From: Candidatus Bathyarchaeota archaeon
GTDB taxonomy: Archaea > Thermoproteota > Bathyarchaeia > Bathyarchaeales > B26-1
Assembly (NCBI GenBank): GCA_018396795.1
Contig: JAGTRH010000055.1
Location: 759 to 8,198, forward strand
DNA: 7,440 nucleotides
Reading direction: 5' to 3'
Of the stretch, positions 67 through 6,807 are shown piece after piece. The stretch's first letter is position 1, and the number at the start of each line of letters is the position of its first letter. The notes under the pieces were generated by a model. The model was given only the letters and a program-made list of their open reading frames with translations, was not told where the DNA came from and did not search any database. The position numbers and the translations under genes are program-made.

Positions 67-1071
67 CTAGAACCGTAAGTTATTGAGGAGGGCTAGCATC
101 AGGGAGGCTGCTGTTAAGTCAGCGGTTGTACCGGGATTCAGCTTCCTCGTTTTTAATTCTTCATCGAATTTGAAGAGCGCTCCTCGTCCTTCTGAAGTTT
201 TAAGACCGCCGAGTTGAAGTATTTCACGGGCTTTCTCCGAGACTTCTTCAGCGGTTTTCATGCCTATTTTCACGGCTTCGGATACGTTGGAGGTATGCTT
301 CAATCCGACGTTTCTAGCTATGAAACTATCTGGATAGATGGATAGCAGTTTTAAGTACGCGTGGACTATTGCAATATTTATGTCGCGGGTTTCAAGATAC
401 AGGGTTTGAAGGGTTGGAAAACCTACGTTGCAAGTTATCTGTAAAGCTGTAACAAGCTCTTTAGCTACGGTATCCCATTCTGACGCAACTTTCATAACGT
501 CGTAAAGCGTTAAGTTTTCCTCCAGAAGAACCCCTTTCGCTTCATCACTCGTTAAATCCGGCGCCTTCTCGCCCACGACTTTACCCATTCCTCCCGGACT
601 TGCCAGAGCAATGGCGTCATAAGTTTCAGCAGCATCTTCGCATGTTGTAGACTTCATGACTCTTGCGAAGTTTTCACGTAAATCAGCCATATCCAGATTG
701 TTGCTTGTTGCAAGCGTCATCCCAACCGCAGCAGCCATCGGCACGAATAGAAGTATTACACCTAAATGCGTGTTTCCACCCCTATGCCAAGCTTTCACGT
801 TTAGAACTGCTTGTTTAATTAGTCTTCCAATCCCCAATCCACATACTTCACAGGGCTTTAGGGAGGATGCTTTAAACGTAGCTTCCCAAAGAACTGGTCC
901 AAGCGATATTGAACCTGCTATGAAGTGTTCAAACCTGGTATCTGGAAAATCAGAGGTTCTATGAACATTCCCAGGCTTAGGCCAACCGCAGACTTCAAGC
1001 GCCGCCGCTAATTGCCCCGCAATCATTATATGATCAGCCAATTCGATTCTACGTCTCCGAGCTAGAGACAT
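67..1071 (-). CDS. CitG-like triphosphoribosyl-dephospho-CoA synthase family protein
   Basis: This is a 334-residue member of the CitG/MdcB family (PF01874, COG1767). Characterised bacterial members join ATP and dephospho-CoA to make the prosthetic-group precursor of citrate or malonate lyase. Visible family marks are CGWPKPGNVHR near residues 28-38, DFPDTRFEHFI near 41-51, a GGNTHLG motif near 98-104 and NPGTTADLTAASL near 312-324, so both ends are intact. I chose the ATG at 1071. An in-frame TTG at 1080 would add three residues. A TATA element at 1106-1113 puts the transcript start around 1083, giving a very short leader either way. The stop is TAG. No citrate lyase, malonate decarboxylase or acyl-carrier gene is nearby, so the bacterial role should not be assumed; a different nucleotide or CoA-related substrate is possible. 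The family call is firm and the substrate is unknown. Confidence 0.88.
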   Translation of the reverse strand: MSLARRRRIELADHIMIAGQLAAALEVCGWPKPGNVHRTSDFPDTRFEHFIAGSISLGPVLWEATFKASSLKPCEVCGLGIGRLIKQAVLNVKAWHRGGNTHLGVILLFVPMAAAVGMTLATSNNLDMADLRENFARVMKSTTCEDAAETYDAIALASPGGMGKVVGEKAPDLTSDEAKGVLLEENLTLYDVMKVASEWDTVAKELVTALQITCNVGFPTLQTLYLETRDINIAIVHAYLKLLSIYPDSFIARNVGLKHTSNVSEAVKIGMKTAEEVSEKAREILQLGGLKTSEGRGALFKFDEELKTRKLNPGTTADLTAASLMLALLNNLRF

Positions 1072-1105
1072 ATTAGTCAAACCCGAAACAGTTCCTTCTA
1101 AATGC

Positions 1106-1221: not shown

Positions 1222-1752
1222 GTGGCAGATGTGGATTTTTACGAAGTTATCAGAACACGTAGGAGTATAAGGTCCTATAAGCCTAATCCAATACCAGAAG
1301 ATGTTTTAACGAGGGTTTTGGAGGCAGCTAGAATAGCTCCTTCAGGCTCAAACCGCCAGCCGTGGAAGTTCATAGTAGTGAGAAATGAAGGGTTGAAAAG
1401 AAGACTAGCGGTCGCATGTCATGATCAGATGTTCATCGCCGAGGCTCCTGTCATCATAGTAGCCTGCGGATATAATATCCACTGGAATAGAGGTGGATAC
1501 ATGGGTGATCTAAGCATGCTTGTCGACGTCTCCATAGCATTCACACATTTGATTCTAGCCGCTAGAGCGGAGGGTTTAGGGACATGTTGGATAGGTTCTT
1601 TCAGCAATGAAAAAGTTAAGGAAATCCTTGGAATACCGAAGGACATCAATGTCGTTGCAATAACGCCACTGGGCTATCCTAAGGATGAGGGTTTTGAAGA
1701 ACCTGGACCAAGAAAACCGCTATCGGAGATTGTGTCCGTAGATAAATTCTAA
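1222..1752 (+). CDS. Nitroreductase family FMN-dependent oxidoreductase
   Basis: This 176-residue protein belongs to the nitroreductase family (PF00881), usually dimeric cytoplasmic flavoenzymes that reduce nitro, quinone or other electrophilic compounds with NAD(P)H. The N-terminal RTRRSIRSYKP (residues 11-21) supplies the FMN-phosphate arginines. APSGSNRQPWKF (39-50) is the classic flavin loop, VDVSIAFTHLILAA (101-114) is the core helix, GLGTCWIG (118-125) follows, and the tail PLGYP...RKPLSEIV (149-171) is typical. Length and ends are complete. The start could be the GTG at 1222, leaderless from the TATA-like element, or the GTG at 1231, for which GGTG at 1221-1224 would be a short Shine-Dalgarno. 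The gene is divergent from the CitG-like gene and converges with a small Cys-protein gene. Its last codons recur in a diverged copy near 6492. The substrate cannot be told from sequence. Confidence 0.93.
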   Translation: MADVDFYEVIRTRRSIRSYKPNPIPEDVLTRVLEAARIAPSGSNRQPWKFIVVRNEGLKRRLAVACHDQMFIAEAPVIIVACGYNIHWNRGGYMGDLSMLVDVSIAFTHLILAARAEGLGTCWIGSFSNEKVKEILGIPKDINVVAITPLGYPKDEGFEEPGPRKPLSEIVSVDKF

Positions 1753-1870
1753 AGACTTTTCTGTTTGCTGTGATTTCTAGGCGGAAGCAACATCTCCACA
1801 GAAGGATACGGTTCGTATAAAAAAGAGGGTATATGTATTAGCTTTCAGATTTAGACTTGGCGTAGAAGCA
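1732..1870 (+). repeat. Direct repeat, copy A (convergent gene junction)
   Basis: This stretch covers the last codons of the nitroreductase (VSVDKF plus stop), the 85-base intergenic gap and the last ten codons plus stop of the small minus-strand gene. A diverged copy in the same orientation lies at 6492-6641. Shared blocks include TAGATAAATTCTAAA, GATTTCTAG followed by CGGAA, TATATGTATTAG and TTTAGACTTGGC followed by TAGAAGCA. Small insertions separate the blocks. The order of blocks is the same in both copies, which argues against chance. Confidence 0.75.
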
Positions 1871-2050
1871 TTCTCCGTTGCGGCATTCTCCAGCTAAATT
1901 ACATGTCCAGCTTAATGTGAAGCTTCCACCTTCCATTCTAATCTTTACAGGAGCTAACACTATAGATCTACGTTTACGTTCACCACCGCCATCTGTAAAG
2001 CCTTCACATATACCCGTATTAGGTTGGATTGTTATTGAAATAGATACCAC
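1838..2050 (-). CDS. Small four-cysteine protein of unknown function
   Basis: This is a 70-residue frame beginning with GTG at 2050. I do not recognise the family. The N-terminal half is beta-strand-like (VSISITIQP), followed by a Gly- and Arg-rich turn (DGGGERKRR, 20-28) and a second strand-rich part. Cys15, Cys50, Cys56 and Cys61 (WTCNLAGECRNGECFYA) could bind a metal or form disulfides. There is no signal peptide or membrane segment. The GTG lies inside the string GGGAGGTG, so this purine run is either the ribosome binding site of a slightly later non-ATG start or simply overlaps the start. It begins 34 bases after the transporter stop on the same strand. A TATA-like run (2061-2072) sits between them, so co-transcription and a separate promoter are both possible. 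A C-terminal relic of a second copy at 6609-6641 differs mainly at silent positions, which supports this being a real gene. Confidence 0.6.
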   Translation of the reverse strand: MVSISITIQPNTGICEGFTDGGGERKRRSIVLAPVKIRMEGGSFTLSWTCNLAGECRNGECFYAKSKSES

Positions 2051-2084
2051 CTCCCGTTCATCTTTATAAAAATAAATTGGGAGT

Positions 2085-4091
2085 TTAGAATGGTATGAAG
2101 AACCTTACCACGCTGATGACTATTCCTGTGAATATTACGGCTAGTGTTCCAGCTAATGCTCCTCCTATGAATGCTACTCCATGCTCCTCGTAGAGTTTGC
2201 TTCCACCTATTCTAAGCGTTAGCCACTTAGCTATCCAAGCTACTAAGAAGGCCGTCCATGTTCCAGTCCATATCTCTCTAGCTGCTCCACTCAGGAGGAA
2301 CCCTACCGGATGTATTGGCCACCATATAAACCTCATCCTCAGAAGGTCTAAGGCAGCCACCACTATGAAGCCTGCTAAGAGGAAAATGGCTATTAGATCT
2401 GGACCGGGTATATTGTTATCCCAGTTGTCGGCGCCTATCCATGCGCAGTCCCATGAAGAGCTACAAGTTCCAGCTCGTCCCCCCATTATATTGAACCACC
2501 ATACTCTTATAACCATAGATATCGGCAATCCTATGAATATCGTTAAAACCATTAAGTAGAAGACTGTTCTATAATTGATTTTTGTGCGACTTGCCAATGC
2601 AAAACCATGCATCGACGCCTCACCCCACGTGTGTACACCGGCACCAGCCGTATTAACCCCGTTTATCAGGATCTCACCGGACCAGAAGTAGTCGTTTGTA
2701 TATGGTCTCGGAGCCTTAGGCCAGATGAATTTTAAGGACCAAGCCGGCCACATAGCTCTCTCCTGCTGGTATGCGTATCCTGTTAAGCCCCGAACATAGG
2801 ACTCGCCTATTATATAGATTATACTTGTGATCAGAACGATGAATCCAGGTATTGCGGTAACCCCCATACTGCCTAGAAACGCTAAAAATACTAGACAAGA
2901 CCCTATAATGTAGAAGTATACCGTTCTATAGCTGAATGGTTCTTCAGATGGCTTCTCAGCTGTTTTTCCAAAAGCCATTCTAAGAGTTTCAGAGAGGTCT
3001 GTTCTCGCACGCCATATCATCATGACTACTAGCGCTACGCCGCCTCCTACGTGGCAAAGCCAGCTCCAATAATACGGTGGACCCCAAGTGGGAGACATTA
3101 GGTATCCAGCCCAACCTAAAACCCTGCAGCAGCCTCCCAATTGAAATATTCCGCTATAGTAGCCCATGTAGTATGCTATTTGAGCCAATATCATTAGTAA
3201 AAGCGTTAAACTCCACATGCTGAAGCTTATGTCTAGTGGGACTAGGTAGGCTATGAGGAAGTTGAGCGGCTGCATATTCCACCTCATGAAAGCCACTAAA
3301 GTCGAGCCTATTTGCCATGCGATGGGGTTTCCCCAGCTTGCTACTACGGCGCATCCATTTGGGCTTACATTGTGCGCACGCCACCCTATTATATCAGGCC
3401 ACCATGGAAATAGATATGTTAAAAGTATCTGAAGATTTATAAAGAATCCGATCGCCAGTCCTAGGACAAAAGCCGTGTTAAAACGTTTTTCATTTACACG
3501 GCTTACACCCTCCCACATACCTATCATAAAGGGGAAGGGTAGCTTTTCAACGTCGATCCATCTTTTTCTAAAAAGCAACATTAGGCTTGAGCTTAAGAGG
3601 AAGTATGCGAAGTGGTAGATTGTCCAGAATGCTATTGCAGGCACCCAAGCACCCCAATTTATGTCCCAAGTTCCAGCCCCCTTAACAACCATGATGACTT
3701 CTCTTGGGACAGTCCACCAATTCCCCATAAGGGTCCTCTGAACGTCTTCACTACTAAACCAAATCCTACAACTGTAGCCTACTGGTAAAGCCATCCAACC
3801 GCTCATACCACCCGCGTTAGCCATAAACATGCTTGTAATTAAGCCTACGAGGTATAGGCGGGCGAGTGATTGAGTATTTTTTGTGAATCTACCTGTTAGA
3901 GAAGCGGCTAGAGGTAGTAGCATGGCTAGGACAGGCATTGTAGCGGGTATGCATACTGTTCCAAGACCATAGATACATGCTATGCCGGATACGTAGAGAA
4001 CGCCGTTGACAATGTTTACAATGATTGATAGCAGTATTATAAGGGCGATCCACAGCGGCCAGTTAACTTTTTCAACGATCTCCCTTGCCAT
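2085..4091 (-). CDS. DUF6785/DUF6784 (OPT-like) multi-spanning membrane transporter
   Basis: This 668-residue membrane protein has many hydrophobic segments, for example near residues 11-33, 48-66, 77-94, 148-174, 205-226, 291-310, 390-410, 413-431, 510-530, 564-582, 608-625 and 636-661. It matches the pattern I know for the DUF6785 plus DUF6784 family of oligopeptide-transporter-like proteins. RKRWIDVEKLPFPF (175-188) is the N-domain signature after a helix pair, and MRFIWWPIHPVGF (586-598) with LRIGGSKLYEE (626-636) marks the C-terminal domain. The substrate is unknown. Cysteines in probable extracytoplasmic loops (38/47, 321/322, 543/549) could form disulfides. The ATG at 4091 is preceded by GGGTG about ten bases upstream and by a TATA box at 4131-4140. 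The gene is full length and the first of a possible two-gene unit with the small Cys-protein gene. Family confidence is good; direction and substrate of transport are not inferable. Confidence 0.85.
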   Translation of the reverse strand: MAREIVEKVNWPLWIALIILLSIIVNIVNGVLYVSGIACIYGLGTVCIPATMPVLAMLLPLAASLTGRFTKNTQSLARLYLVGLITSMFMANAGGMSGWMALPVGYSCRIWFSSEDVQRTLMGNWWTVPREVIMVVKGAGTWDINWGAWVPAIAFWTIYHFAYFLLSSSLMLLFRKRWIDVEKLPFPFMIGMWEGVSRVNEKRFNTAFVLGLAIGFFINLQILLTYLFPWWPDIIGWRAHNVSPNGCAVVASWGNPIAWQIGSTLVAFMRWNMQPLNFLIAYLVPLDISFSMWSLTLLLMILAQIAYYMGYYSGIFQLGGCCRVLGWAGYLMSPTWGPPYYWSWLCHVGGGVALVVMMIWRARTDLSETLRMAFGKTAEKPSEEPFSYRTVYFYIIGSCLVFLAFLGSMGVTAIPGFIVLITSIIYIIGESYVRGLTGYAYQQERAMWPAWSLKFIWPKAPRPYTNDYFWSGEILINGVNTAGAGVHTWGEASMHGFALASRTKINYRTVFYLMVLTIFIGLPISMVIRVWWFNIMGGRAGTCSSSWDCAWIGADNWDNNIPGPDLIAIFLLAGFIVVAALDLLRMRFIWWPIHPVGFLLSGAAREIWTGTWTAFLVAWIAKWLTLRIGGSKLYEEHGVAFIGGALAGTLAVIFTGIVISVVRFFIPF

Positions 4092-4130
4092 TTTACATTA
4101 CACCCATTATTTTATTTTTTCTCTGAAAGT

Positions 4131-4140
4131 ATATATATTT
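4131..4140 (-). promoter_or_regulatory. TATA box of the transporter gene
   Basis: The minus strand reads AAATATATAT here, a strong archaeal box A. Transcription would start near 4110, leaving a leader of about 19 bases that contains a GGGTG Shine-Dalgarno-like run ahead of the ATG at 4091. Confidence 0.6.
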
Positions 4141-4210
4141 AACCACTACTCTGCATTTTCCCCACGTACGATGTACTGACTCTTTCAGTATAATGCGAAA
4201 AATAGTCTAA

Positions 4211-4516
4211 AGAACCCGAGGAGTCTACTCGAAAATCCATAAAATATCATGGAAAGTCAACGTTGGAAACGCTTATCTAATCCGTAAAATCGTAAATGGT
4301 TTAATCAAATATTATGGATTAAAATACTGGTCTTGAAGCCAAAAATGGTTGGGCTTTAAAGAGCTTGTGAACATGCCGTTTGATACGTGGGAAGCTTTGC
4401 AGACTCTAACTCCGATATGCTGGAAAACCTATAAATTTCGTCTAGCAAAAGAATTTCCTAGATTTAGTGCCAATGCTTCTACCAAGTCTCAATACTTTAT
4501 CCAGTTACTCTCCTGA
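4211..4516 (+). pseudogene. Decayed open frame of unknown origin with an internal TGA
   Basis: One plus-strand frame stays open for 41 codons, meets TGA at 4334-4336 and continues open for 59 more codons to TGA at 4514. The translation looks protein-like on both sides of the stop, with segments such as GNAYLIRKIVNGLIKYYGLKYWS before it and WLGFKELVNMPFDTWEALQTL, then TPICWKTYKFRLAKEFPRF, after it. A further in-frame ATG at 4193 is followed by a TAA at 4208, so there may be two nonsense mutations. I do not recognise the family. The last 20 bases overlap the 3' end of vapC on the other strand. A shorter real gene starting at ATG 4373 (MPFDTW...) is possible but has no convincing ribosome site. 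The rest of the 4141-4496 gap holds only a small inverted repeat, TACTGA/TCAGTA, at 4174-4190. Confidence 0.4.
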
Positions 4517-4886
4517 AGTGTAAGTGTTCTACATTCCCCGTTACCAATGTATATCCATTAACTAGAATTATTCCAGCAATCATAGCATCTCTCAAATCGA
4601 TGGGTAGCCGTATGCTAATTAGTCTTGAGAGGATCTCACCGGATTTTCTCGAGCTCTCTAAAGTTAGACTAGGGATTTTTATTGAATTTAGTAAGCCGTC
4701 AGCTTGCTTAACTTTTTTCTCCACCTCTCTAGACTTAAAAGCATCCAAGTATATTTCAAAGGCATTTATCGACGTCGTCGAAATTTCTGCACCGATAGAA
4801 TCGTATTCTTCAGCCTTCTCAAAGGCTTCTTTACGACCCCTCAATAACGCTACTAGAAAGTCAGTACCTAAACAAATCTTTTTCAT
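4497..4886 (-). CDS. vapC: VapC-type PIN-domain toxin, first catalytic Asp replaced
   Basis: This is a 129-residue PIN-domain protein of the VapC type; the family are Mg-dependent ribonucleases that cleave tRNA or rRNA. Family marks are KKICLGTDFLVALLRG at 2-17, STTSINAFEIY at 36-46 with acidic Glu44, PIDLRDAMIAGIIL at 95-108 with Asp100, and TLVTGNVEHLHF at 113-124. In the family the first motif normally reads LDTDFLI, and the Asp before Thr is the first metal ligand. Here that position (7) is Gly, from codon GGT, one base from GAT. Activity is therefore doubtful unless Asp9 substitutes. I start the gene at ATG 4886; the same frame extends upstream to 4988, but there the antitoxin frame carries the family signal. 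The start overlaps the antitoxin end by 26 bases, the usual vapBC layout. Confidence 0.82.
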   Translation of the reverse strand: MKKICLGTDFLVALLRGRKEAFEKAEEYDSIGAEISTTSINAFEIYLDAFKSREVEKKVKQADGLLNSIKIPSLTLESSRKSGEILSRLISIRLPIDLRDAMIAGIILVNGYTLVTGNVEHLHFRRVTG

Positions 4887-5031
4887 ATCTCTTCCACAGC
4901 TCCGAGATTCCACCGAAGATCTCCTTTTCTTCTTGGCCATCCATAATTCAAGCCCCTGCGAAACTCGCCAAGGATTTCTCGGAGACACTAAAGCAGAGTC
5001 TGAGGATTACATCTGTGAAGGATTCACCCAT
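4861..5031 (-). pseudogene. vapB: Disrupted VapB-type antitoxin (in-frame TGA, N-terminus missing)
   Basis: Read in one frame from ATG 5031 to TGA 4863-4861, this gives a COG1753 (DUF217)-type antitoxin. It reads GESFTDVILRL at residues 2-12, KSLASFAGA at 19-27, then an in-frame TGA (4950-4948), then IMDGQEEKEIFGGISELWKR at 29-48 and YEKDLFRY. The family has Trp after FAGA, so the TGA is most simply a TGG-to-TGA change. The usual first 20 or so residues, which carry the DNA-binding beta strand before GESF, are absent: upstream codons do not encode them. Yet ATG 5031 has a GGGGGT ribosome site (5043-5038) and a TATA box at a suitable distance. ATG 4944 after the stop could restart a 27-residue toxin-binding tail (MDGQEEKE...). 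The DNA-binding half is certainly compromised; whether the tail still neutralises VapC is open. Confidence 0.75.
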
Positions 5032-5054
5032 TTCTCTACCCCCTAGACAAATAC

Positions 5055-5072
5055 TTTCGAAAATTATCGAAA
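5055..5072. promoter_or_regulatory. Inverted-repeat operator candidate between divergent toxin-antitoxin genes
   Basis: TTTCGA and TCGAAA flank a six-base AT spacer, forming a perfect 6+6 dyad. It lies directly next to the shared TATA element. For the minus-strand vapBC it sits between TATA box and predicted start site, and for the plus-strand operon it sits where a BRE or upstream repressor site would be. The winged-helix protein encoded from 5086 is the obvious candidate binder, by analogy with autoregulating antitoxins. Binding is inferred. Confidence 0.45.
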
Positions 5073-5082
5073 TATTTATAAG
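5073..5082. promoter_or_regulatory. Bidirectional TATA element for vapBC and the winged-helix/nucleotidyltransferase operon
   Basis: TATTTATAAG reads as a TATA box on both strands (minus: CTTATAAATA). On the minus strand it predicts a start near 5051, 20 bases before the vapB ATG. On the plus strand it predicts a start near 5103-5105, which is inside the longest reading frame and just before the GTG at 5107. This suggests leaderless initiation at that GTG. Confidence 0.5.
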
Positions 5083-5085
5083 TAA

Positions 5086-5694
5086 ATGAATTCTAAAATA
5101 GAAAATGTGAAACTGGAGCGTGTATACAGAGAAGTCCTATATGGAGTGTTGGAGAATAATACAAGAGATTTTAAGCAACTCAAGCTCAGCAGATCTTGCA
5201 AGCTATCTTTGAGTACGGTAAACTATGCTCTAACTCCTTTAGTAAGTATGAACGCGATAGAGAAGAAGAGGTTTGGGTTTTCTGTCTTAGATGCAAGGAA
5301 GATTTTACTCTATTGGGCTTCGATCAGAAGGTTGGAAAAAGATGTTGTTTATCAAACGCACTTGAATAAGTCTGTGGAAAAGATTGAAAGCGAGGTTCCA
5401 GCAGATTCGATCTTCACTGCATACTCGGCGTTTAAATTTAAGTTTAAAAAAATTCCCTCAGAATATGATGAGGTTATTGTTTATGGAAGGAGGGAAGATT
5501 TTGAGAGAAGATTCGGAGGAGAGAATCTCAAATTAAAACCTAATTTGACAGTCTTAAACCTTGATGAACATTTGCTTAAATTTAAAATCGCTCCGATTGC
5601 GCAAATTTACGTTGACCTTTGGAATTTGAGATCTTGGTATGCCAGAGACTTCCTGAAAAAAATGGAGGAGATTCTCAGTGGAGTTTTGGAATGA
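5086..5694 (+). CDS. Winged-helix protein, probable antitoxin/regulator of a type IV-like (AbiE-like) pair
   Basis: This protein of up to 202 residues appears to have an N-terminal winged-helix domain. KLERVYREVLYGVLE (9-23), a second helix near 27-35, the recognition-helix-like SRSCKLSLSTVNYALTPLV (35-53) and a wing ending IEKKRFGFSVLD (58-69) fit that fold. The C-terminal half (ADSIFTAYSAFKFKFKKIP near 106-124, then YDEVIVYGRREDF) and the tail APIAQIYVDLWNL...WYARDFLKK (169-192) resemble the AbiEi-like layout of DNA-binding domain plus effector-binding domain. Its stop overlaps the next gene by 17 bases, and that gene is a nucleotidyltransferase, the hallmark of this system type. The ATG at 5086 has no ribosome site and lies upstream of the predicted transcript start, so the GTG at 5107 (195 residues) is a serious alternative. 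The gene is AT-rich compared with the transporter. Assignment to AbiEi is by analogy; a general transcription regulator is possible. Confidence 0.7.
   Translation: MNSKIENVKLERVYREVLYGVLENNTRDFKQLKLSRSCKLSLSTVNYALTPLVSMNAIEKKRFGFSVLDARKILLYWASIRRLEKDVVYQTHLNKSVEKIESEVPADSIFTAYSAFKFKFKKIPSEYDEVIVYGRREDFERRFGGENLKLKPNLTVLNLDEHLLKFKIAPIAQIYVDLWNLRSWYARDFLKKMEEILSGVLE
5664..5670 (+). promoter_or_regulatory. Ribosome binding site fixing the nucleotidyltransferase GTG start
   Basis: GGAGGAG lies inside the end of the winged-helix gene, seven bases before the GTG at 5678. It is the best Shine-Dalgarno match seen in the window. It shows that the downstream gene starts within the upstream one, giving tight translational coupling. 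Confidence 0.7.
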
Positions 5695-6298
5695 AATAAT
5701 TATAGATAGAAGCTTTAGAGTTTTGCAAGAATTAAGGAAGAAGATTGATTTTATTTTGATAGGTGGTTGGGCGGTCTACTTCCTAACAAAAGCGTTAAAA
5801 TCAAAAGATATTGACATTATAGTTGACTTCGAAAATTTAGCGAAGATTAGATTAGAACTAGACGTTAAAAAAACGGGGTTCTTAAAGAAGTATGAGGCTG
5901 AGGTGGAAGGTACTTCAATCGATATATACGTTCCATACTACTCGGAGTTTGCTGTTCCTATAGAGGAGATTTTTAGAAATTTCTTAGTTGTTGAAAATTT
6001 TAAAATTCCAAAGCCGGAAATTCTACTGATATTGAAGCAACAAGCAGAAATGCAAAGAAGGAATAGCGTAAAGGGCCAGAAGGATAGAGTGGACATAATC
6101 TGCTTGGCAATTAGTGGAAAGATTGATTGGAAATATTACAAACAGCTTGTGGAAAAATTCGACTTGAAAGAGTATGAAAGTGAAATGGAGAAAATCGTAA
6201 GAATAGCGAGAGTTGAGTTTGAATACCTTGGCATAACAAGCTTAAGAGAGGTCAAGAAGATGAAGGAGAAGATTTTGAAGGAGTTAAAGGTGGATTAA
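5678..6298 (+). CDS. AbiEii-like nucleotidyltransferase, probable toxin of the type IV-like pair
   Basis: This 206-residue protein carries the nucleotidyltransferase fold signature: DFILIGGWAVYFL (24-36) with the GG motif, then KSKDIDIIVDF (41-51) with metal ligands Asp44 and Asp46, and a third acidic residue Asp82 in TSIDIYVPY. A later KGQKDRVDIICLAI (132-145) matches the Lys/Asp motif typical of AbiEii/MenA-like and related DUF1814-type enzymes, which transfer nucleotides to RNA or other targets. All catalytic residues appear present and length is normal, so the gene looks functional. The start is GTG at 5678, set by the GGAGGAG site at 5664. It overlaps the winged-helix gene by 17 bases and the pair forms an operon ending in TAA. 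The C-terminal 60 residues are Lys/Glu-rich helices. It could be a resistance-type or housekeeping nucleotidyltransferase, but the partner gene favours toxin-antitoxin. Confidence 0.82.
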   Translation: MEFWNEIIIDRSFRVLQELRKKIDFILIGGWAVYFLTKALKSKDIDIIVDFENLAKIRLELDVKKTGFLKKYEAEVEGTSIDIYVPYYSEFAVPIEEIFRNFLVVENFKIPKPEILLILKQQAEMQRRNSVKGQKDRVDIICLAISGKIDWKYYKQLVEKFDLKEYESEMEKIVRIARVEFEYLGITSLREVKKMKEKILKELKVD

Positions 6299-6488
6299 TC
6301 AATCGGTTAAAGCGGAGATACATGTTAAAATCTCCCAGGACTTTATTCAATACCATATCCTCCATGATCGTAAACTTATTAAAACTTAAAGAAATTAAAA
6401 GAGTGAAGGTTATTCTTCTCTCGGTTTCCCATAATTTCGCTCTCCACTTCTCAGATAGGCTTACATTTGCCTTAAATTCCGTTTTTAA
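6299..6488 (-). other. Gene-free stretch with a weak minus-strand open frame
   Basis: No gene with a start signal is visible here. A minus-strand frame is open from 6488 leftward past 6299, giving a mixed charged/hydrophobic translation that includes LSEKWRAKLWETERR and later MEDMVLNKVLGDF, with an ATG near 6363. It runs on into sequence antisense to the nucleotidyltransferase, where it becomes low-complexity Ser/Pro-rich before its stop at 6254-6252. That is typical of a shadow there. It has no ribosome site. It could be the relic of a gene whose end was cut off when the toxin-antitoxin operon arrived, or a chance frame in AT-rich DNA. Confidence 0.25.
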
Positions 6489-6491
6489 TCA

Positions 6492-6641
6492 GTATCTATA
6501 GATAAATTCTAAATACTTTTCCATTTGATGATTGCCGCGATTTCTAGACGGAAAAGTATCTCTATAAAAGAGTGTAATTCGAGTAAAATAGGCGTATATA
6601 TGTATTAGTTAGCCTTCGGATTTAGACTTGGCATAGAAGCA
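6492..6641 (+). repeat. Direct repeat, copy B (relic of a duplicated gene junction)
   Basis: This is a diverged copy of 1732-1870 in the same orientation, about ten bases longer. On the plus strand it still ends a coding frame with VSIDKF and stop (nitroreductase copy: VSVDKF), with silent differences in the Val and Ser codons. At its right end it carries the C-terminal tail of the small Cys-protein gene on the minus strand. Upstream of VSIDKF the frame is closed by a TAA two codons earlier, so the gene body is gone. It lies within 75 bases of the tRNA-Val gene. Confidence 0.75.
6609..6641 (-). pseudogene. C-terminal relic of a second small Cys-protein gene
   Basis: Ten codons plus stop read CFYAKSKSEG, against CFYAKSKSES at the end of the 1838-2050 gene. 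Of three base differences two are silent (TAC/TAT, TCT/TCC) and one changes the last residue. An in-frame TAA lies one codon before the Cys, so nothing else of the gene remains. The pattern suggests the copy diverged under coding constraint before it was lost. Confidence 0.6.
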
Positions 6642-6673
6642 AGTTTAAATAGATATGCCCAGCAGAGTAATGC

Positions 6674-6681
6674 TTTTTAAA
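6674..6681 (+). promoter_or_regulatory. TATA box of the tRNA-Val gene
   Basis: TTTTTAAA is centred about 27 bases before 6704-6705, giving a start site 7-8 bases ahead of the mature tRNA 5' end. A second TATA-like run, TTTAAATA at 6644-6651, is too far upstream to be the main box. Confidence 0.55.
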
Positions 6682-6711
6682 AAGAGGAACTAACTAAATA
6701 GTAAGCACCTA

Positions 6712-6785
6712 GGGCCGGTCGTCTAGTCTGGTAGGATACCACCCTTACGAGGTGGTGGTCGTCGGTTCAAGTCCGACCCGGCCCA
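6712..6785 (+). tRNA. tRNA-Val (anticodon UAC)
   Basis: A complete 74-base cloverleaf can be folded by eye. The acceptor stem is GGGCCGG with CCGGCCC, followed by discriminator A. The D arm has GTCT/GGAT with the GG of the loop, and the anticodon stem is CCACC/GGTGG around the loop CTTACGA. The anticodon TAC is at positions 34-36. The variable loop has five bases, and the T arm is GTCGG/CCGAC around TTCAAGT. There is no intron and CCA is not encoded, as is common in archaea. The loop uridine at position 34 implies reading of GUA and probably other Val codons. Relics lie on both sides, and tRNA genes are common insertion targets, but no copy of the tRNA 3' end is seen elsewhere in the window. 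Confidence 0.97.
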
Positions 6786-6807
6786 CTCTTTTACCATACT
6801 TCTTCTA
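6786..6807 (+). terminator. T-rich terminator candidate after tRNA-Val
   Basis: Immediately after the discriminator base the plus strand is pyrimidine-rich with several T runs (CTCTTTT, then CTTCTTCTATT). Archaeal RNA polymerase commonly stops at such tracts without a hairpin. No hairpin is seen. Confidence 0.4.

Follow-up and report, generated by a model that had tools for sequence, protein, structure and literature searches.

Among the described systems to which the locus analyzed here can be compared is the genomic island bounded by att direct repeats at a tRNA gene. The window (the whole stretch of DNA that was analyzed, 7,440 bases) resembles such islands in its direct repeats, in the accessory genes that these repeats enclose and in a nearby tRNA gene, but its proteins give no integrase family match, the repeat lies outside the tRNA gene and is younger than the transporter gene of the enclosed block, and genes of that block are found elsewhere without the repeat. 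A different comparison is with the remnant of a mostly deleted tandem (segmental) duplication, which the second repeat copy, J2, resembles in its direct orientation, short spacing, truncation and junction at short shared sequence, although a second remnant of the duplicated unit beside J2 is not significant in comparisons of its right flank with four targets. As a short, nearby-derived copy that ends at short shared sequence, J2 is also like a templated insertion at a repaired break.

We find that J2 copies a gene junction located at the other end of the block, is absent from the corresponding spacer of a relative, groups with the first copy, J1, and encloses with it a transporter gene that is old. 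The direct repeats are probably explained by a local duplication, of which little is left. Taken alone, J2 is an ordinary event and the finding matters little. More broadly, direct repeats around accessory genes by a tRNA gene can mimic an integration scar yet be the relic of a later, independent duplication.

Genes of the window

The nearest matches to the window are MAGs labelled Candidatus Bathyarchaeota (locus L001) and uncultured archaeon (locus L002). One flank holds a gene for a CitG-like triphosphoribosyl-dephospho-CoA synthase (67–1080, minus strand; profile match), which is kept in both L001 and L002, followed by a nitroreductase-family gene (1222–1752, plus strand) assigned by profile match and locus comparison. 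Convergent with the latter is the gene for a small Cys-containing protein of 70 aa, Cys70 (1838–2050, minus strand), which has no family match in Pfam or NCBIfam and is encoded on the same strand as the adjoining gene (2085–4091, minus strand). By Pfam match, this adjoining gene encodes a DUF6785/DUF6784 membrane transporter-like protein, a member of a large family; ‘transporter’ is a putative name, as the Pfam families themselves are of unknown function. The next gene, for a PIN-domain (VapC-like) protein (4497–4988, minus strand; profile match), has no counterpart in L001 or the other compared loci. Upstream of it, a minus-strand frame (4861–5075) has by eye the look of a VapB-type antitoxin and contains an in-frame stop. 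The tRNA-Val gene (anticodon TAC; 6712–6786, plus strand) stands beside J2.

Between the PIN gene and J2 lie two overlapping plus-strand genes, one for a possible winged-helix protein of 202 aa (5086–5694), the candidate antitoxin, and one for a DUF6036 nucleotidyltransferase (5678–6298), the candidate toxin. This arrangement could correspond to an AbiE-like type IV toxin–antitoxin pair, in which a wHTH antitoxin gene overlaps a nucleotidyltransferase gene, but the DUF6036 match reaches 24.6 bits against a cut-off of 23.6, and the HTH matches of the winged-helix protein are weak and all below cut-off. PADLOC matched nothing for the PIN, winged-helix or nucleotidyltransferase proteins, and the pair at 5086–6298 has no PDB relative below E 0.5; the toxin–antitoxin label is accordingly used here as a putative one.

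A second, truncated copy of the junction

J1 (1732–1870, plus strand), defined by alignment and reading, is the convergent junction itself, made up of the nitroreductase 3′ end, a spacer and the 3′ end of the Cys gene, and it is attached to whole genes. Local alignment of 1700–1900 with 6450–6700 pairs J1, in the same orientation and with a score of 63, with a second, truncated copy, J2 (6492–6641, plus strand; certain from about 6499), whereas 1,000 dinucleotide shuffles of the second stretch gave a mean score of 12.3 (s.d. 2.0) and a maximum of 25. When the window is compared with itself by blastn, the J1/J2 match (E 1e-16, 73% over 144 columns) is the sole non-self match below E 0.5, the next having an E of 0.57. 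The copies are separated by 4,621 bases (1871–6491), and a further 70 bases lie between the end of J2 and the tRNA-Val gene, the 3′ end of which is outside the repeat.

The initial annotation had reported this recurrence from the letters alone, and the alignment bears it out. Its further claim, that both copies keep their coding ends with mostly silent differences, stands in part. The residues are as it gave them, with VSVDKF in J1 and VSIDKF in J2 on the plus strand and CFYAKSKSES in J1 and CFYAKSKSEG in J2 on the minus strand, and four of the six coding differences are silent by manual count. There are only six changes, however, two of which fall in the doubtful left end of J2, and such a pattern does not show J2 to be a former working gene end. 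Elsewhere in the repeat, two stretches, one of seven bases and one of four, are missing from J1 but kept in J2, L001 and L002, which indicates that J1 was altered after copying and that J2 is the more original copy at these positions.

The left breakpoint of J2 falls in a short shared stretch (6492–6499, plus strand) that reads GTATCTAT in the window and has counterparts both downstream of the L001 nucleotidyltransferase gene (GCATCTAT) and at the end of the L001 nitroreductase gene (GTGTCCAT). In blastn comparisons, the window ceases to match the L001 region behind the nucleotidyltransferase gene at 6476, and the J1/J2 match begins near 6499–6500, the safe start of J2. An alignment anchored at 6477 and extended to 6499 against the region downstream of the L001 nucleotidyltransferase gene beats shuffles (share 0.0032; 0.021 without the last eight bases), and leftward extension of the nitroreductase homology at J2 is not better than shuffles (share 0.52). 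These shares make it more likely that the first eight bases of J2, read as the VS codons and the beginning of another, are old flank and place the left end of J2 within a short stretch with likeness to both sides. A free local search with 6477–6498 over four targets, the L001 spacer included, gave shares of 0.53 to 1.0, none above shuffles. On the other side, the right flank of J2 (6642–6664, plus strand) leads to the tRNA-Val upstream region, which is common to the window and L001 from 6665 and to the window and L002 from 6659. This flank has no clear source among four targets and shows no significant remnant of a duplicated unit (shuffle shares 0.086, 0.132, 0.961 and 0.045); its best match, 11 of 12 bases with the share of 0.045, is to the 5′ part of the Cys70 gene.

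J2 also contains a perfect 10-bp stem (6513–6522 with 6550–6559) right behind the old stop codon, the window's only inverted repeat that combines exact arms of 10 with a loop of at most 40. It is nevertheless very unlikely that J2 has been retained for a transcription-terminating stem-loop between the nucleotidyltransferase gene and tRNA-Val. A stem of this kind occurs in 31% of 200 resampled windows and in 1.3% of 2,000 resampled J2 spacers, the test having been devised after the fact. The stem is poorly kept in J1, L001 and L002, the consensus fold of the four junctions is only −0.7 kcal/mol with six of eight pairs broken in at least one sequence, and the single-strand folds of the four junctions are close to those of shuffles (z −1.0 to 1.1). 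On the resampling frequency, the weak consensus fold and the shuffle-like single folds, we reject a functional hairpin, and a function of J2 is unlikely.

Relatives sharing the locus

A scan of species genomes gave 207 nitroreductase relatives, from which 80 loci were kept and 23 of these compared with the window. Two of the 23, L001 and L002, share the locus; the remaining 21 match in nitroreductase genes alone at E 1e-3. Four genomes in the genome collection belong to the family of G001, the genome of L001, and in G007 and G008, which belong to the same family, nothing except the nitroreductase genes matched the window in 19- and 20-kb stretches around theirs.

In L001 (JAGTQM010000005.1) the order is CitG, nitroreductase, junction, decayed Cys gene, anchor-like gene, transporter, split gene, winged-helix, nucleotidyltransferase and tRNA-Val; the counterpart of J1 occupies the same place after the nitroreductase gene as in the window, and does so in L002 as well. 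The anchor-like gene (L001 9336–9971, minus strand; 211 aa), which we so name by eye from its reading, has only about 35 bases in its place in the window, and the split gene, which looks similar to it and runs over two frames, stands where the window has the PIN gene. The L001 transporter match (9983–11989) includes one in-frame TAG near its start, pointing to a later start or a broken gene. At the place of J2, the nucleotidyltransferase gene and the tRNA of L001 are separated by sequence that differs from the window over about 650–680 bases and in which a 102-aa frame looks to us, by eye, like part of an aldo/keto reductase. Direct alignment of J2 with this spacer (L001 14269–14919) scores 12, no better than shuffles (share 0.64). 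Local scores against the L001 and L002 junctions are 37 and 44 for J2 (shuffle maxima 21 and 20) and 28 and 37 for J1. Across L001's genome, J2 matches 46 bases beside that genome's own nitroreductase gene, the tRNA upstream region and short pieces.

L002 (CALKCG010000069.1, a 3.8-kb contig) carries CitG, nitroreductase, junction, decayed Cys gene, the last part of the anchor-like gene and the tRNA-Val upstream region, and its match to L001 stops at L001 9457 and restarts at 14920. Since the anchor-like gene, intact in L001, survives in L002 only as its end, the simplest account of L002 is a deletion and not an original empty site; the direct junction between this gene end and the tRNA upstream region led us to reject L002 as a clean empty site. 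The comparison with related genomes that the initial annotation had proposed therefore turned up no clean absence of the segment, which L001 has and L002 lost by deletion. Further deletions or replacements in the nitroreductase–tRNA-Val interval set L001 and L002 apart both from the window and from one another, and the interval has a different build in each of these three genomes.

Ages of the copy and of the block

Between the window and L001, differences at 4-fold sites number 46/149 in CitG, 23/68 in the nitroreductase, 97/285 in the transporter, 7/63 in the winged-helix gene and 12/44 in the nucleotidyltransferase gene. The transporter (0.34) is as diverged as the flanking genes (0.31 and 0.34), and the transporter part of the block is therefore old. 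Compared with CitG, nitroreductase and transporter combined (166/502), the winged-helix gene has diverged less (p 0.0002), and its protein is 95% identical between the window and L001; the nucleotidyltransferase gene gives p 0.50 against the same three genes, and the two together give p 0.0017. Low winged-helix divergence from L001 hints at later exchange or constraint, and a later exchange of the winged-helix/nucleotidyltransferase pair is possible. The conclusion that the block is older than J2 is thus firm as regards the transporter but weaker as regards this pair.

In the spacer, 13 informative sites group J1 and J2 against L001 and L002, as against 4 and 3 for the other splits, with the grouping in 1,967 of 2,000 bootstraps dependent on the four-way alignment and on J1–J2 being the top-scoring pair. 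K2P distances from this alignment are 0.36 (0.22–0.57) between J1 and J2, 0.74–0.89 from either copy to L001 or L002 and 0.64 between L001 and L002; the J1–J2 distance is smaller than the mean distance to the relatives in 0.999 of 2,000 bootstraps and smaller than the L001–L002 distance in 0.97. Changes private to one sequence fall at 7 sites in J2, 6 in J1, 10 in L001 and 13 in L002. With the freer gaps of pairwise global alignments, spacer identities are nearly even (0.66 to 0.77), and the scores against L001 and L002 are 20.0 and 23.2 for J2 and 6.5 and 14.2 for J1, compared with 29.0 for J1–J2. By score, J1 is the more changed copy, which fits its two deletions but is unexpected under a simple picture of J2 decaying.

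Most likely, J2 arose in the window's lineage with the transporter already in place. An origin of J2 before the split from L001 and L002 is not favored, given its few changes of its own and its position nearest to J1. If J1 and J2 had undergone gene conversion, J2 would seem younger than it really is, which offers an alternative to a young J2.

The copies differ at 3 of 33 positions in the Cys end and 24 of 88 in the spacer (p 0.048). Low divergence of the Cys end fits selection on J1 alone and also some selection on J2. Selection on J1 only predicts coding ends about half as different as the spacer, so that low coding divergence is no proof of a second gene pair.

Origin of J2

We propose that a local duplication, likely a tandem duplication with later deletion, took place in the window's lineage after its split from L001 and L002, and that J2 is what remains of it and is now neutral; this reading seems to us the probable one. 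It covers the two relatives that have the locus, with the spacer corresponding to J2 present in L001 and deleted in L002: the copy stands above chance and, against these two, is specific to its lineage and groups with its source. Before copying, the transporter and probably the winged-helix and nucleotidyltransferase genes would already have stood beside tRNA-Val. In a tandem duplication, sequence immediately behind the nucleotidyltransferase gene could then have become fused, via a few shared bases, to the final codons of the nitroreductase gene. Subsequent deletion of nearly all of the second copy, from inside the Cys gene to the tRNA promoter region, would have left about 140–150 bases, which at present are presumably neutral DNA. 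The initial annotation had surmised that a second nitroreductase/Cys pair once stood here and that only the junction survives. J2 does copy the window's own junction, and only this junction survives, but a full second pair is unseen in L001 and L002. Its other suggestion, that tandem duplication or insertion between the repeats gave rise to the block, is at odds with L001, which has the block in place but no detectable J2 and in which the divergence of the transporter matches that of the flanking genes. It was right to argue against recent integration, as J2 is old and not a recent integration scar.

A local duplication could also have taken a one-step path, in which the chromosome broke between the nucleotidyltransferase gene and tRNA-Val and repair copied in about 140 junction bases from 4.8 kb away, the ends being joined and the original spacer lost. 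A single event of this type would yield a short copy truncated at both ends, and the left end of J2 in short shared sequence and the bases unlike the window that L001 holds at its place are both in keeping with such templated insertion. On these sequences, it is indistinguishable from duplication plus deletion, from which it differs in molecular path alone; we consider it the unlikelier path, and its probability is a share of that given to duplication, not an addition to it. Recombination with DNA from another, closely related species whose junction had evolved between intact genes is improbable. It would account for the silence of four of the six coding differences, for coding ends less different than the spacer and for a J2 less changed than J1 with respect to L001 and L002, and the low winged-helix divergence (7/63), which its partner gene (12/44) does not match, makes exchange at the locus possible. 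Against this, a sample of six changes is too small, the doubtful left end accounts for two of the silent ones, and a selected J1 with a neutral J2 yields the same pattern.

Readings in which the repeats are mobile or dispersed fare worse. Direct repeats around a 4.6-kb block with toxin–antitoxin-like genes, adjoined by a tRNA gene, would suit an integrated element that carries the block between attachment-site-like ends; in that case the block should be absent where a single repeat is found. Instead, L001 combines a single junction copy with the transporter, winged-helix and nucleotidyltransferase genes. In addition, J2 is younger than the transporter, Pfam and NCBIfam reveal no integrase or recombinase family among eight window proteins, the two proteins tried have no viral-contig relatives, and the tRNA is outside the repeat. 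With the block genes present in L001 without a second copy, we reject integration through the repeats, to which we attach almost no probability. Slighter still is the chance that J1 and J2 belong to a dispersed repeat family. Relatives of the Cys-protein part of the junction do occur elsewhere in G001 and in G002, the genome of L002, but the best of these are protein genes beside transporter paralogs, and a J2 search of both genomes matched spacer plus gene ends only at the nitroreductase locus, the other matches being short. A repeat scattered genome-wide, against which the initial annotation had weighed its own account, is thus absent from G001 and G002, and within these two genomes we reject it. 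Local duplication followed by loss is the origin that we prefer for J2.

The Cys protein and the transporter family

Cys-protein matches away from the locus number six in G001 and G002 at E 1e-4 or better, and at E 1e-5 the protein has a match in two of the seven genomes of the order, again G001 and G002. The three best relatives (78%, 66% and 68% identity; L081, L082 and L090) lie directly after a transporter paralog on the same strand, and another match (G002:C201) lies about 580 bases before a transporter gene; for two more (G002:C109 and C98), no transporter match is listed on the contig. The Cys gene therefore more likely goes with the transporter than with the nitroreductase, next to which it is seen at this locus alone. 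The earlier view of nitroreductase and Cys gene as a pair gives way to this association, as its three best relatives directly follow DUF6785 transporter genes.

The DUF6785/DUF6784 transporter-like family itself is strongly expanded in G001 and G002, with matches at 41 and 27 places, respectively, fragments included; a literature search for the family name DUF6785 found no paper on it. G002 carries a transporter gene (79% protein identity) and an anchor-like gene on a contig other than that of L002. At 4-fold sites this transporter differs by 0.49 from that of L001 and by 0.53 from that of the window, as against 0.34 for the window–L001 pair, and is thus most likely a paralog. On the plus strand, L001 9336–12807 reads anchor-like gene, transporter and second (split) gene, whereas another locus, L125 4080–7554, reads second gene, anchor-like gene and transporter. 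The two orders are circularly permuted and could have originated by tandem duplication and loss.
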